A stretch of DNA of 64,000 nucleotides from Sneathiella sp. P13V-1 (GTDB lineage: Bacteria > Pseudomonadota > Alphaproteobacteria > Sneathiellales > Sneathiellaceae), in assembly GCF_015143595.1 (NCBI RefSeq), contig NZ_WYEU01000003.1, positions 124,001 to 188,000 of the forward strand, in the 5' to 3' direction. Positions 43,513-50,662 of this stretch are shown piece after piece. Made by a program: the position numbers and the translations under genes. How positions within the stretch are numbered: position 1 is the first letter of the stretch; each line of letters begins with the position of its first letter. The notes beneath the pieces are model-generated. The model was given only the letters and a program-made list of their open reading frames with translations, searched no databases and was not told the origin of the DNA.

Positions 43513-44484
43513 ATGCCATCACCTGAAGGTACACATCAAGTTGAAGTTTCGGCCGAAGACGTTGGAGAACGTCTGGACAGGTTTCTTGCGGAAAAATTAG
43601 GGGGCCTTTCCCGAAATCGTGTAAAACCTTTGGTTAAAGATGGCAAGGCAAGCCTTGCTGGTGAAGTTATCACGGATCCTTCACGCCGCGTTCGTGAAGG
43701 CGAAATTTATGAGATCACAATTCCGGAAGCCCGCGATCCCGATCCGATACCACAAGACATCCCCCTCGATATTGTATTTGAGGATGAACATCTGATTGTG
43801 GTCAACAAGCCCGCCCGTATGGTCGTTCACCCTGCGGCAGGAAATTGGAGCGGCACCCTTGTCAACGCATTGCTTTTTCACTGCGGCGATAGCCTTTCTG
43901 GGATTGGAGGGGTAAAACGCCCTGGCATTGTCCACCGTATTGACAAAGAAACCAGTGGTCTGATGGTAGTTGCAAAAACGGACGCTGCTCATCAGGGCCT
44001 GGCCACGCTATTTGAAAATCATGACATCGAAAGAACCTACCGCGCCATTGTCTGGGGCCGCGTTTATCCTCTATCCGGTACGATTGAGGGCAACATCGGG
44101 CGCGACCCCCATAATCGAAAGCGTATGGCAATCGTGACAAACGGCGGGAAAGAAGCGATTACCCATTATGAAGTTGAAGAAAACTTCGAAGACATCGCCT
44201 GTCTGGTAAAATGCAATTTAGAAACAGGTAGAACCCACCAGATCAGGGTGCATATGGCTAAAGAAGGTCATCCTTTAGTGGGCGATCCTGTCTATACGCG
44301 GCCCAAACTCAGCCGTACAAAATCACTTCCCGAAGCCCGGCAAAATGTCATACGCAAATTTCCAAGGCAGGCTTTACATGCACAAACCCTTGGTTTTGTG
44401 CACCCCATCACAAACAAACCCTTGAAATTTGAGGTAGAATTCCCATCTGACATGAAGAAACTGCTTCATGCATTTCGGGGGTAG
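43513..44484 (+). CDS. rluD: RluA/RluD family pseudouridine synthase
   Basis: This 323-residue enzyme isomerises uridine to pseudouridine in large-subunit rRNA. An N-terminal S4 domain (GERLDRFLAEKLGGLSRNRV) is followed by the synthase domain with catalytic Asp144 in HRIDKETSGL. The C-terminal RTHQIRVH and HPLVGDPVY motifs are present. S4 plus synthase and the length suggest RluD (helix 69), although RluC cannot be strictly excluded. It lies just upstream of rpoH, a conserved alphaproteobacterial neighbourhood. Confidence 0.93.
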   Translation: MPSPEGTHQVEVSAEDVGERLDRFLAEKLGGLSRNRVKPLVKDGKASLAGEVITDPSRRVREGEIYEITIPEARDPDPIPQDIPLDIVFEDEHLIVVNKPARMVVHPAAGNWSGTLVNALLFHCGDSLSGIGGVKRPGIVHRIDKETSGLMVVAKTDAAHQGLATLFENHDIERTYRAIVWGRVYPLSGTIEGNIGRDPHNRKRMAIVTNGGKEAITHYEVEENFEDIACLVKCNLETGRTHQIRVHMAKEGHPLVGDPVYTRPKLSRTKSLPEARQNVIRKFPRQALHAQTLGFVHPITNKPLKFEVEFPSDMKKLLHAFRG

Positions 44485-44611: not shown

Positions 44612-45490
44612 ATGAGCAATTCGTCTCTGCCAACCATCACACCTGAAGGTGGGTTGACGCGCTACCTTCAGGAAATTCGCAAATTCCCAATGCTGGATCC
44701 AGACGAGGAATACATGCTGGCAAAAGCCTGGAAGGAACGTGAGGATTCGGAAGCCGCTCACAAAATGGTGACGAGCCATCTACGTCTTGTGGCCAAGATT
44801 GCCATGGGTTACCGCGGATATGGCCTCCCCGTTGGAGAATTGATCGCCGAAGGCAATGTCGGCATGATGCAAGCCGTTAAACGATTTGAACCTGAAAAAG
44901 GGTTTCGACTGTCCACATATGCAATGTGGTGGATCAGGGCTGCCATTCAGGAATACATTCTTCGCACATGGTCCCTTGTGAAAATGGGGACAACGGCGGC
45001 GCAGAAGAAACTCTTCTTTAACCTCCGCAAAGTCAAAGGCCAAATACAAGCCATTGATGATGGCGACATGACACCAGAACAGGTGGAGACCATTTCCACA
45101 AAACTAGGCGTGTCCGAGGAAGAAGTTGTCAACATGAACCGCCGCCTTACTGCGCCGGATCATAGCCTGAACTCGCCAATGCGTGCTGATAGCGAAGGAG
45201 AGTGGATGGACTGGCTCGAAGATGACAGTCCAAATCAGGAAACCGTATATGCGGAAAGTGAAGAGCTGAAACGCCGTAAAGCAATGCTGGAAAGCGCAAT
45301 GGATTGCCTGAACGACCGCGAGAAGCATATTCTCACTCATCGCCGCCTACGCGAAGACCCTTTGACACTTGAAGATCTGAGCCAGGAGTTCGGCATCAGC
45401 CGCGAACGGGTTCGTCAGATTGAAGTTCGCGCCTTCGAAAAGCTACAGAAGGCAGTAAAAGCCAAAGCGTTTGAAGAGCGTTTGAACTAA
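44612..45490 (+). CDS. rpoH: RNA polymerase sigma factor RpoH (sigma-32)
   Basis: This 292-residue heat-shock sigma factor has region 2 at about residues 50-120 (SHLRLVAKIA, GNVGMMQAVKRFEPEKGFRLSTYAMWWIR). The RpoH-specific box QKKLFFNLRK at 131-140 binds core polymerase and is a target for chaperone/FtsH control. Region 4 ends in SRERVRQIEVRAFEKLQKA. It directs transcription of chaperone and protease genes. TATACT (44526-44531) upstream could be a -10 element, with no clear -35. ftsH, whose product degrades RpoH in other bacteria, is at the other end of the window. Confidence 0.94.
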   Translation: MSNSSLPTITPEGGLTRYLQEIRKFPMLDPDEEYMLAKAWKEREDSEAAHKMVTSHLRLVAKIAMGYRGYGLPVGELIAEGNVGMMQAVKRFEPEKGFRLSTYAMWWIRAAIQEYILRTWSLVKMGTTAAQKKLFFNLRKVKGQIQAIDDGDMTPEQVETISTKLGVSEEEVVNMNRRLTAPDHSLNSPMRADSEGEWMDWLEDDSPNQETVYAESEELKRRKAMLESAMDCLNDREKHILTHRRLREDPLTLEDLSQEFGISRERVRQIEVRAFEKLQKAVKAKAFEERLN

Positions 45491-46671: not shown

Positions 46672-47178
46672 TTATTCTTTTGTATCGGATTCTTTCTTTT
46701 GGCTTTTGGCTGACCCAGGCACGCCTGTTTTGGAATCTTCAACAATCCGACCGCCCCACTCTTCGATCATCTTCATCCGTCTTTTTTCGAGCTTTCCAAC
46801 TAAGTGCCTAGCTTGGACTTCATAAACGCCCTGCACAACAATGGGGACCCCCCAAAGGAGGAAAGCTGCTATCCCGGCGCCACCAAACATCAACAGCCAC
46901 ATGAACACATCCGTAAGTAACCGCATAGCCTGATCGATCGTGTGCCCTCTCTCCCACAGGAAACCAATAACAGGGACGACACCTGCCAGATTTAGTGCAG
47001 TCATCGCGGCGATACTACCTTTGACACGACTTGGATTTACAAAAGTCGCAACGATACTTGGGATCATGCCAACCGTCAGAACTATAATAGTCGGAGGTGC
47101 AACGACAGCCCCCACTCCTAAAAAAATGAGCAGTGGCAAGACACCTTTTGTCGCCTCTTTTGCTTGATCTGCACTCAC
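46672..47178 (-). CDS. Membrane protein of unknown function paired with the pseudokinase
   Basis: This 168-residue protein has about three to four hydrophobic segments (around residues 13-45, 55-73, 86-115) and a basic then acidic cytoplasmic tail (KLEKRRMKM ... KKESDTKE). I do not recognise the family. It starts with a GTG four bases after the stop of the pseudokinase gene, with GAGG of its ribosome-binding site at the end of that gene. The two are therefore co-translated and probably act together at the inner membrane. Confidence 0.78.
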   Translation of the reverse strand: MSADQAKEATKGVLPLLIFLGVGAVVAPPTIIVLTVGMIPSIVATFVNPSRVKGSIAAMTALNLAGVVPVIGFLWERGHTIDQAMRLLTDVFMWLLMFGGAGIAAFLLWGVPIVVQGVYEVQARHLVGKLEKRRMKMIEEWGGRIVEDSKTGVPGSAKSQKKESDTKE

Positions 47179-47182
47179 TTTT

Positions 47183-49213
47183 TTACCTCAAAAAATACAT
47201 GTAGGAGAGCCCCATACTCGTCATCAGAGCTGCGATTGAAATAATGGATGCTAGCCAATGGCCGTATTTCTGCGCTGCCAATTTGCGCGCCTCAGTACCG
47301 GCTTCCAACGCTCGCATCCCCTCAACAATTTTTATGAACACCTGTAGCGCCTGACGGTATTCACGGCCATCCCGGTTCATATTGTTCTGCAAATCAATGT
47401 CTTTTAAGATCCGATCGATATTTCCAGTTTCGACCGCTTTTGCAAGTTTTCTCAGTATGGTTTCCCGTCTGATATCCGAATTTATTGACTTGATGAAGGG
47501 TTTCAAAATTTTTGCGGCCCAAGCTGCCAAACCGGGTTTTGGAGAGGGGCTGATAAGCGTCTGCAACCTGGCGAACAAGGCCACCAAATGCAACGTATAT
47601 TCGATGCCACCGGGTTGCATGCTGCTGAATTTCTGAAAATGCTTTGCCAGAGATTTATTTCTGGCAGCCAAAAAGGCGGCGATATGTCTGTCAAAAGGTT
47701 TGATATTGCCATCCGCTTTCAGCGCCCGTGCTTCCAAAACGTCCACTAATGTTTCAACGTCTTTCACAAAAGCCCCTTCAAACACTGACCCTAAACATGG
47801 CAACTGTGGATTTAGTTCATATAAACAGCGTTCTAAGCCAAAGCCGATAACGTCTCGCTTCTCCATATATTCAAAACACTCTGTCGCCAGATTAATTTTG
47901 AGCCAACTTTCCTTCTTCTTACCAGGTACAAGCCCTGTGGCCGCTGGCTTTGTTGAGACGTCAGAATAGATAACATCAAGCAAGGTCCCATTTTCCAGCA
48001 ATTCGGCCATGGAGTTTTTTAACGCGCCTGCAACTCGAAAGGCACAGGCAAGTAAACTTGGAAATCCGCCTCTTGAAAAAGACACTTCGCGATACCAAAA
48101 AGCCCCGTCTCCATCCAGAATTGCACAGGCTTTTGAAACACTCTGGGTATCTCCCTGGCGCCCCCGTCCGCTGGCAATCCCCTTCAATGAGATTTCAGCC
48201 ATGCGCGTTGCCGCATCTTTATCGCCCAAAGAATTGCGAACCCAGCTTTCCAGCTTGCCATTTTCCATCAATGTGAACGCTTGTGCGGGGCGTTGGGTCA
48301 TTGCAAGAGATAACAAGCGAGGAGACACATATTCCTGTTCTTCAAAAACAATTGGACCTGGGGCCTGTCTGTCTCCAAAACCTGGTCTGGGTCTTTCATA
48401 AACGCCATCACGCCAGCGTTTTAAAACTTCAACATTCCACCTGCGTGTCGGATCATCATTGAGAAGGCCCGCAAGCAGAAATCCAACACGTGTTGATGCA
48501 GGAATTTTGGGTACCAGAACCGCGTAACTGCCGTGCTGTAGTTTGGCAGCGTACAATTCTTCTCGGCTTCGTCCTTCGCCCGGAAGAACACCGCCCAACA
48601 TATGCACAATCGTGACACCCAAAGCGTAGATATCATACATGATATCACCGCGGCCCCGCCCTTCGGCAAGTGCGTTTGCACTTTCAACAGGCTCATACAC
48701 AGCGGGTTGTAGCGAGCCGGCTGGTGTAGAAACACAATCACCCAGAACAACGCCTGACTCGCCAGGTTCCATATAAAACAGGTTATCAGCGCGGATCCCG
48801 CGGTGCGACAATTTCCGGTTGGAAAAATCGATCAGAAGATCAACAAGACGCGGGACAATTTTCCCAAGAAGAACATTTTCGCTGATTGCACCTCGGCCCT
48901 CAGCATAAACCGCCCCCCCCAATGGCTGTTCAAAAACGAAAACATACCGATAGTCCGTATCATCGAATTTCACAACACCATGGCTTTGTAGCGAGATCAG
49001 TCCTGGCGGGCTTTTCTTCATGAGATCTTGGACGAGTTCGTCTCGATACACCACGCCAGAATTCAGGATAATCGCAAAAAGATGACTTGTGCTGTCGCGC
49101 GTGTCCTCTACCTTACAAGCGCGGTTTTCGCCACTATCAAGATGTGATAGCGGTTGCGACATCTGAATACGATATCGCCCATGAAGCAGTCCAAGATTTT
49201 CATCCATCGTCAT
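47183..49213 (-). CDS. Protein kinase-like protein, predicted membrane-anchored pseudokinase
   Basis: The N-terminal half of this 676-residue protein (about 10-270) has a eukaryotic-like kinase layout: HRGIRADN at 137-144 where kinases have HRDxKxxN, GDC at 158-160 where DFG is expected, YEPVES at 173-178 in the APE position, and DIYALGVTIVHMLGG at 194-208 (helix F). The ATP-anchoring lysine position reads AII (47-49) and the catalytic aspartate is Gly139. Phosphotransfer by the normal mechanism is therefore unlikely. The middle (about 280-650) is a helical domain I do not recognise. A hydrophobic helix near 652-674 would tail-anchor the protein in the inner membrane. It is followed after four bases by a polytopic membrane protein gene. 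Confidence 0.8.
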   Translation of the reverse strand: MTMDENLGLLHGRYRIQMSQPLSHLDSGENRACKVEDTRDSTSHLFAIILNSGVVYRDELVQDLMKKSPPGLISLQSHGVVKFDDTDYRYVFVFEQPLGGAVYAEGRGAISENVLLGKIVPRLVDLLIDFSNRKLSHRGIRADNLFYMEPGESGVVLGDCVSTPAGSLQPAVYEPVESANALAEGRGRGDIMYDIYALGVTIVHMLGGVLPGEGRSREELYAAKLQHGSYAVLVPKIPASTRVGFLLAGLLNDDPTRRWNVEVLKRWRDGVYERPRPGFGDRQAPGPIVFEEQEYVSPRLLSLAMTQRPAQAFTLMENGKLESWVRNSLGDKDAATRMAEISLKGIASGRGRQGDTQSVSKACAILDGDGAFWYREVSFSRGGFPSLLACAFRVAGALKNSMAELLENGTLLDVIYSDVSTKPAATGLVPGKKKESWLKINLATECFEYMEKRDVIGFGLERCLYELNPQLPCLGSVFEGAFVKDVETLVDVLEARALKADGNIKPFDRHIAAFLAARNKSLAKHFQKFSSMQPGGIEYTLHLVALFARLQTLISPSPKPGLAAWAAKILKPFIKSINSDIRRETILRKLAKAVETGNIDRILKDIDLQNNMNRDGREYRQALQVFIKIVEGMRALEAGTEARKLAAQKYGHWLASIISIAALMTSMGLSYMYFLR

Positions 49214-49323
49214 TTATTTTGCCTAAGGCCGAGCACAGAATGCTCAGCGAACCTACAACTTGCCCCAAAATGACGGAGTAGCGTTAAAATGACGTTAAGC
49301 TAAAAACTAAATCTAAAACAGAA

Positions 49324-49345
49324 AAGGCGGCTAAAAAGCCGCCTT
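49324..49345 (-). terminator. Intrinsic terminator of the hisZ-purA operon
   Basis: AAGGCGGCT (49324-49332) and AGCCGCCTT (49337-49345) form a 9-bp stem with a four-base loop. On the minus strand it continues into TTTTCTGTTTT. It lies 25 bases after the purA stop. Confidence 0.88.
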
Positions 49346-49369
49346 TTTGCATATTAATACATTCGTAAA

Positions 49370-50662
49370 TTACTCAGTAAAAGGATCTTTTACCAAAATT
49401 GTGTCATCCCGCTCAGGACTTGTAGACACAAGAGCAATGGGTGCCTCGATAAGCTCTTCGATGCGGCGGATGTATTTTACTGCCGTCGCGGGCAAGTCAT
49501 CCCAACTACGCGCCCCAAAGGTGCTGTCCGACCATCCTTCAAGCGTTTCGTATATCGGCTTGACCGCTGCCTGATCTGCCATGTTGGATGGGAAGTAATC
49601 ATATTCCTTGTCCCCAATACGATATCCAACACAGACTTTCAGTTCATCCATACCGTCCAGAACATCCAGCTTCGTCAGGGCAATACCTGTGATACCGCCT
49701 GTTTTAACAGCCTGGCGTACCATAACCGCATCAAACCAGCCACACCGGCGCTTACGCCCTGTGACAACACCAAATTCGTGACCGCGTTCACCAAGACCTT
49801 GTCCAACTTCATCAAACAGCTCTGTCGGGAAAGGTCCTTCTCCGACACGCGTTGTATAGGCTTTGGTGATGCCCAGTACATAATTAACAGAACCAGGTCC
49901 TACACCACTACCTACCGCTGCCTGACCAGCCAGAGTATTTGAAGAGGTGACAAATGGGTATGTACCATGGTCGTTATCCAGCATTGTTCCTTGTGCCCCT
50001 TCGAAAAGCACAAGTTTGCGGGCTTTACGGGCTTCATCCAGACGGCGCCAAACCACATCTGCAAATTCCAGGATCTTTGGTGCGATTTCCAGAAGCAGTT
50101 TAAGCAGATCCTCGCCATCAACAGCGTCAGCACCCAATCCCTTGCGAAGGGCATTGTGGTGCATCAGCAGGGTCGCGATTTTACTGCGCAGCAGGTCTTC
50201 ATCCGCCAAATCGGAAACGCGGATCGCACGGCGGGCAACCTTGTCTTCATAGGCTGGACCAATGCCGCGGCGGGTCGTTCCAATCTTGACGGCAGATGTC
50301 GCATCCTCCCGGAGTGCATCCAACTCACCATGAAGTGGAAGGATCAGCGTTGCGTTTTCCGCGATTTTGAGATTGTCGGAATTGATCTCCACATCTTGAC
50401 CGCGCAGTGTGTCGATTTCCTTCAAGAGCGCCCATGGATCAACCACAACGCCATTACCAATAATGGATTGCTTTCCACCACGAACAATACCTGACGGCAG
50501 GAGGCTCAGTTTATAAACTTTACCATCAATAACCAGCGTATGGCCCGCATTGTGGCCACCCTGAAAACGCACGACCACGTCGGCACGCTCTGACAGCCAG
50601 TCCACAATCTTGCCTTTGCCTTCATCCCCCCACTGGGAACCGATGACAGCTACATTTGCCAT
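49370..50662 (-). CDS. purA: Adenylosuccinate synthetase
   Basis: This 430-residue enzyme makes adenylosuccinate from IMP, aspartate and GTP, the first committed step to AMP. It has the glycine-rich [11 protein letters not shown] at residues 8-18, GHNAGHT at 38-44, TRRGIGPAY and the GTP-binding region near the C-terminus (TKLDVLDG). Full length. It lies 27 bases downstream of hisZ in the same operon and ends at an intrinsic terminator. Confidence 0.97.

Follow-up and report, generated by a model that had tools for sequence, protein, structure and literature searches.

A tail-anchored pseudokinase and its small membrane partner are retained with flagellar genes in Alphaproteobacteria

The window analysed here, a stretch of 64,000 nucleotides from Sneathiella sp. 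P13V-1, carries two adjacent genes encoding a tail-anchored pseudokinase and a small polytopic membrane protein that is its near-obligate companion. Across alphaproteobacterial genomes, this pair seems to be retained chiefly by those that retain flagella, an indication that it assists motility in a way so far unrecognised. This flagellar link is new and was absent from the original prediction made on the same DNA. We consider it slightly more probable than the contrary that the two proteins constitute an inner-membrane pair serving the flagellum, in which a dead kinase provides the basis of a scaffold or regulator. The near-obligate pairing, the membrane anchoring and the uniformly lost active site would be expected of a scaffold or regulator, as originally proposed, more than of an enzyme, and a flagellar role is suggested by the fact that several families retain the pair together with flagellar genes.

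Both open reading frames are found on the minus strand at the positions originally given. The pseudokinase gene (47183..49213; 676 amino acids, ATG start) is separated from the partner gene (46672..47178; 168 amino acids, GTG start) by the four-base gap already reported, counted from the stop of the former to the start of the latter. Neighbourhood comparison identified purA (49370..50662, minus strand) as a recurrent upstream neighbour and rpoH (44612..45490, plus strand) as a recurrent convergent neighbour on the opposite side of the pair, with rluD (43513-44484) alongside it. The recurrent order is serC-serA-hisZ-purA-pseudokinase-partner, convergent with rpoH and rluD, and purA and/or rpoH are present in the stretch of 43 of the 56 loci compared (L210-L265). 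Judged by this gene order, the purA-rpoH site is the ancestral neighbourhood of the pair and has been vertically inherited. A terminator-like hairpin (49322..49347, minus strand; 11 pairs, six of them G-C) lies 3' of purA, between this gene and the pair, and the pair is therefore probably its own transcription unit; such hairpins gave 8 hits in the region for 4.9 expected.

The kinase-like domain covers residues 8-272 of the pseudokinase (48398..49192, minus strand) and was delimited from the model and the alignments. The original prediction had seen in it the outline of a eukaryotic-like kinase whose fold was probably kept. AlphaFold2, run on the full 676 residues with 73 sequences (the window protein and 72 relatives), predicts a kinase fold with high confidence (mean pLDDT 92.8, pTM 0.87). 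Predicted residues 5-271 match WNK1 best among solved kinases (Z 22.4, rmsd 2.8 Å over 250 residues), and this structural match places the domain among the bilobal kinase folds of PF00069. At the sequence level, the window protein matches PF00069 weakly (E 0.0097, 15.8 bits for a cut-off of 31.7), and 24 of 27 family members, including this one, match it at E <= 0.1 (best 1.2e-10). No relative was retrieved from genome contigs with the single protein as query; a profile of alignment A1 gave 218, the best 80 of which are the named loci. From these 80, 76 loci remained after a length filter and four (L063, L072, L088 and L104) were then omitted, leaving the 72 that form, with the window sequence, alignments A3 and A4.

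Both catalytic residues are lost. In the window protein, A47-I48-I49 stands in place of the β3 (ATP-binding) lysine motif and H137-R138-G139 in place of HRD, exactly as first read. In a set of 172 distinct sequences of the family, which counts the copy of the window itself, the lysine position is V, I, L, M or A in 166 and K in two, and the position of the HRD aspartate is A, S, G or N in 154 and D in one. None of the 172 keeps the lysine and the aspartate together, as an active Ser/Thr kinase would, and the intact relatives found (loci L193-L195, described below) show no partner gene in the 5.5-12 kb around them. The HRD region follows the pattern H-R-[AGSN]-I-R-x-x-N, with H in 164 and R in 135 of the 172 sequences. 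The DFG motif is also degraded, as had been claimed, but its register had been misplaced: GDC had been read at this position, whereas alignment of the window's L-G-D-C-V to the GDFG of L194 and L195 and to the ADFG of L193 makes D159 the DFG aspartate (D159-C-V), F and G alone being lost. Of the 172 sequences, 81 have E here and 77 have D. The two features thought to be preserved are indeed so: the catalytic-loop asparagine, N144, is N in 164 of 172 sequences and the helix F aspartate, D194, is present in 109 of 109. Other conserved residues of the domain are R57 (167/172) and R141 (147/172), and no Gly-rich loop was seen by eye in the family alignment. As far as can be judged from these substitutions, the pseudokinase most likely cannot phosphorylate. 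Two members of family f21 (L190:6920-8950 and L234:8632-10647) keep the β3 lysine and have lost the HRD aspartate. The pseudokinase gene is split into two frames in three loci: L021 (G014), L219 (G120) and L197 (G577).

The long helical domain and the C-terminal membrane anchor that had been proposed are both borne out by the AlphaFold2 model, and the anchor also by hydropathy. The helical domain (residues 286-606; 47396..48358, minus strand) is modelled as two small strand pairs followed by helices, and the anchor (residues 657-675; 47189..47245, minus strand) lies inside a long helix, 608-675. The C-terminal part modelled by itself reached a pLDDT of 91.4. The strongest conservation outside the kinase fold is that of the helical domain, with W324 in 170, E461 in 164, R462 in 165, C473 in 169, D508 in 167 and H510 in 164 of the 172 sequences. 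Nothing significant was obtained for this domain in the PDB with Foldseek (best E 0.23), and the best Z of VIA-align, 5.8, is inside the noise for helical models. Designed armadillo repeats match the domain weakly in a profile search, probably in a generic way.

The partner has three hydrophobic segments (residues ~16-34, 56-74 and 91-109), and a charged C-terminal tail with an invariant WG, in agreement with its first description as an unrecognised polytopic membrane protein. Both window proteins remain below every Pfam and NCBIfam cut-off. Furthermore, no Pfam family is common to more than one of the 30 members of the partner family (alignment A2), and a profile search of the PDB gave no relative of the partner. 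The pairing was surveyed in 289 alphaproteobacterial genomes spread evenly over the class. The pseudokinase was found in 99 genomes and the partner in all 99; it is directly downstream of 100 of the 111 pseudokinase genes, so that the two genes do co-occur as had been anticipated. These counts exclude 14 weak kinase-only matches (E 2e-7 to 4e-6), which brought the number of genomes from 105 to 99 since six had no others, and the second fragments of split genes in G120, G145 and G297. Five of the 11 non-adjacent pseudokinase genes are extra copies (one each in G119, G158 and G258 and two in G151). Six pair-bearing genomes have no adjacent pair: the genes are at contig ends in G135, G174 and G297, and both are present and clearly separate in G055, G193 and G241. 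The partner occurs without the pseudokinase in two genomes, G056 (84% complete) and G069 (75% complete). Among the best 80 of the 218 relatives, the partner was not found within 8 kb in six (L091, L102, L106, L110, L121 and L124), and the sequence of three others (L076, L104 and L130) stops too close to the gene to judge. Two genomes, G038 and G170, each carry three extra partner copies away from any pseudokinase found, in varied contexts (L171, L172, L173, L186, L187 and L188).

In the same sample, FlgI was detected in 93 of the 99 pair-bearing genomes vs 73 of the 190 others, FlhA in 89 vs 77, and at least one of the two in 98 vs 81. By its retention with flagellar genes, the pair thus behaves as an accessory flagellar component, with one exception: the pair is present in G218 (98% complete, 320 contigs), where both FlgI and FlhA are missing. 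Conversely, the pseudokinase is missing from 81 of the 179 genomes that have FlgI or FlhA and is therefore not a core flagellar part. Since relatives share traits, the comparison was also made within families containing the pseudokinase, family labels being read by eye. Where FlgI/FlhA are present, the pseudokinase is found in 98 of 104 genomes and missing in six (G127, G253, G079, G290, G069 and G167); where they are missing, it is missing in eight of nine (G268, G182, G273, G192, G203, G234, G125 and G248) and present in G218. This contrast (Fisher p 5e-8) corresponds to few events, and the eight include genomes less than 90% complete (G273, G203 and G248) or small (G192, 0.9 Mb; G234, 1.5 Mb). 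A second Fisher test (p 1.7e-5), one cell of which is approximate, is not relied on. Seven of the eight genomes devoid of flagellar genes and pseudokinase (all but G248) keep purA, hence plain genome decay does not explain all eight losses.

Family f29 (12 species) was picked since two of its genomes, G052 (with both pseudokinase and flagellar genes) and G182 (with neither), were known to differ; the ten others were new. The pseudokinase is found in nine of the 12 and FlhA in exactly the same nine, the three genomes with neither (G182, G586 and G591) belonging to two genera. The ten new genomes, scored on FlhA, divide into eight with both and two with neither; as G586 and G182 are of one genus, G591 is the sole fresh lineage among the negatives. 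In the Sneathiella family, FlhA was found in 19 of 21 further genomes, the other two being 70% and 56% complete. G577 has no FlhA, and its kinase gene is in two frames with the kinase domain partly missing, for which a sequencing fault is possible.

In two genomes, the genes lie beside flagellar genes. G156 carries two tandem pairs (L174) directly before flhA (PF00771), on the same strand and 54 bases away, together with a motA/pomA-family gene and a flbD-like gene (732 bits, cut-off 750) that are also on the strand of the pair; in another locus of this genome (L175), flgG is 6 kb off. In G055 (L202), the pseudokinase gene comes after flgI, rod-binding (flgJ-like), flgN-like, flgK and flagellin/flgL-like genes, the flgL-like one scoring under the cut-off of its model. 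Flagellar placement of the pair was seen in just these two genomes among 165 context loci, the usual neighbours being purA and rpoH, and with L174 and L202 (plus L175) the flagellar neighbourhood was judged too weak to serve as the main argument. Other apparent cases were discarded by eye: fliI-like matches in L205 and L241 were taken for ATP synthase alpha and a flbD-like match in L100 for a different sigma-54 activator. Tandem duplication of the whole pair, as in G156, was also seen in G298 (L180), at the purA-rpoH site.

A putative CtrA-type box (TTAACGTCATTTTAAC; 49283..49298, minus strand) lies 5' of the pseudokinase gene and fits the CtrA site TTAA-N7-TTAAC given in PMC3692519. The window holds three TTAA-N7-TTAA sites for 1.06 expected, and at least three are reached in 9 of 100 shuffles, so that the single window box is not significant alone. 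The box is conserved in the Sneathiella group: TTAA-N7-TTAA precedes the pseudokinase in 21 of its 23 regions (0.2 in shuffles), compared with 3/16 for purA, 2/14 for rpoH, 0/11 for each of hisZ, serA and serC and 1/13 for rluD in control upstream regions of this group. Beyond the Sneathiella group, it is rare (11 of 151 regions; 0.9 in shuffles; controls 2/90 for purA and 3/72 for rpoH). The shuffles of these upstream regions were sampled from a first-order Markov model rather than by exact permutation of dinucleotides. In Sneathiella, the pair probably belongs to the CtrA regulon, CtrA presumably binding at this box. In the window genome, the fli/flh cluster contains no full box in 40 kb and the flgI stretch contains one, some 360 bases ahead of a gene of flaG type; the box alone is therefore no proof of a flagellar regulon. 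The ctrA gene of the window genome (L266:12351-13079, contig C5; NCBIfam CtrA, 423.8 bits for a cut-off of 350) sits inside this fli/flh cluster, a chemotaxis and flagellar cluster with fliI-, flhF-, fliG- and fliF-type genes identified with Pfam and others by eye.

The box, as well as the position of most pair loci outside flagellar clusters, would also suit a CtrA-controlled pair devoted to polarity or cell-cycle signalling, which would track flagella since motile, polarised cells keep both. We regard this as unlikely: retention follows FlhA and FlgI closely, and tandem pairs stand before flhA in G156. Moreover, according to PMC3692519, neither Magnetospirillum magneticum nor R. centenum requires CtrA for viability, and the title of one of its references mentions an ancestral role in motility. 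Vertical inheritance beside rpoH, at the purA-rpoH site of 43 of 56 loci, may instead suggest that the pair has a general housekeeping function, in the membrane or in stress, and that its flagellar correlation comes from common ancestry and genome reduction, all the more as some of the genomes lacking both flagella and the pair are small or incomplete. This explanation, which appears decidedly unlikely to us, does not account well for the exact split in f29, whose genomes range from 3.2 to 6.9 Mb, nor for G268 (5.6 Mb), G182 (3.5 Mb) and G125 (2.3 Mb), which keep purA and have neither FlgI/FlhA nor the pseudokinase.

The domain may also look dead and still have a new enzymatic activity, on a flagellar or other target, as do the dead-looking kinase domains of SelO and SidJ. 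N144, the acidic residue at the DFG aspartate position, R57 and R141 are kept, and a metal site may thus survive. Nevertheless, the β3 lysine is aliphatic in nearly all sequences, the HRD aspartate is gone, no Gly-rich loop is visible and the strongest conservation outside the fold is found in the helical domain, which makes such an activity very improbable in our opinion.

In the favoured explanation, that of a flagellar scaffold or regulator, the large pseudokinase with its helical-repeat platform would be tethered to the inner membrane by its C-terminal anchor, facing the cytoplasm, and the small polytopic partner would join it there, probably in a physical complex. The kinase fold and the helical domain, with W324, E461-R462, C473 and D508-R509-H510, would serve as a binding platform. 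By analogy with EssB/YukC, the pair would most likely act on the flagellar base or its export gate, helping to assemble, position or regulate it, and assembly or positioning at the flagellar base is our best guess for the step served. That it is an unrecognised alphaproteobacterial flagellar component, namely a pseudokinase-partner membrane complex at the base or export gate of the flagellum, where it would scaffold or license assembly, is a proposal to which we give somewhat less than even credence. To our knowledge, it would be the first Ser/Thr-type pseudokinase of such kind in flagellar biology. The pair is present in about one third of the sampled alphaproteobacterial genomes, yet both window proteins fall short of the Pfam and NCBIfam cut-offs. 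If the link is true, flagella of many Alphaproteobacteria, including Magnetospirillum and Azospirillum species, would possess one more membrane component, and a motility machine would have taken up a dead kinase much as a secretion machine took up EssB.

EssB/YukC is the closest working analogy for the pair: it is a membrane-bound bacterial pseudokinase with degraded motifs that acts as a scaffold of a membrane machine, a role that the present family would share by analogy. Unlike EssB/YukC, which is linked to type VII secretion, this family bears a long helical-repeat domain, is anchored at its C-terminus, comes with a polytopic partner of its own and is linked to the flagellum. A Pfam scan of the window pseudokinase at E <= 1 gave PF00069 alone, and hence no match to the YukC model that Pfam contains. 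Several candidate identities were rejected. PADLOC matched the pseudokinase weakly, to generic kinases (PD-T4-6, best E 0.001), and did not match the partner, and the neighbourhood is of housekeeping type, which does not indicate a defence system. Of 27 family members, 24 match the kinase model MADS6 of NCBIfam (best E 4e-11), a result judged to be due to the kinase domain, and the lanthionine synthetase model LanL spans the kinase part alone (30.5 bits for a cut-off of 650).

Bacterial pseudokinase families have been described by O'Boyle et al. 2025 (ActPs1-3, GLW, CP1, DYD and DLHK; PMC12599244), and the features given for them differ from those found here. GLW replaces HRD in the family of this name, whereas here HR is mostly kept and the aspartate lost (HRG in the window). 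DLHK proteins keep the HRD aspartate and have no membrane region, whereas the aspartate is lost and an anchor present here. DYD proteins have Arg for the lysine, which is here mostly replaced by aliphatic residues; CP1 proteins have no membrane regions and a COG3899 link, in contrast to the membrane anchor found here; and the ActPs families are mainly actinobacterial, this pair being alphaproteobacterial. In the titles and abstract openings of open papers, the pair is unnamed and no Ser/Thr flagellar pseudokinase in Alphaproteobacteria appears among the matches listed; one title and the start of its abstract tie YdiU/SelO to flagellar control in Salmonella.

Of 299 genomes surveyed across the phylum Pseudomonadota, 12 matched at E <= 1e-10, eight belonging to the alphaproteobacterial class. 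Of the four outside it, three (G317, G541 and G556) have intact Lys, HRD and DFG, and the fourth (G384) is a generic kinase. The intact kinases of other classes, L193:4988-7627, L194:3502-5488 and L195:1024-3333, differ from the pseudokinase by these motifs and by the absence of a partner gene in the 5.5-12 kb around each. They resemble it in that the kinase is followed by helical-like repeats, over which no Pfam model passes its cut-off and which match the helical domain weakly, most clearly in L194 and L195. Hence, the alphaproteobacterial family may have descended from an active kinase with an architecture like that of L193-L195.
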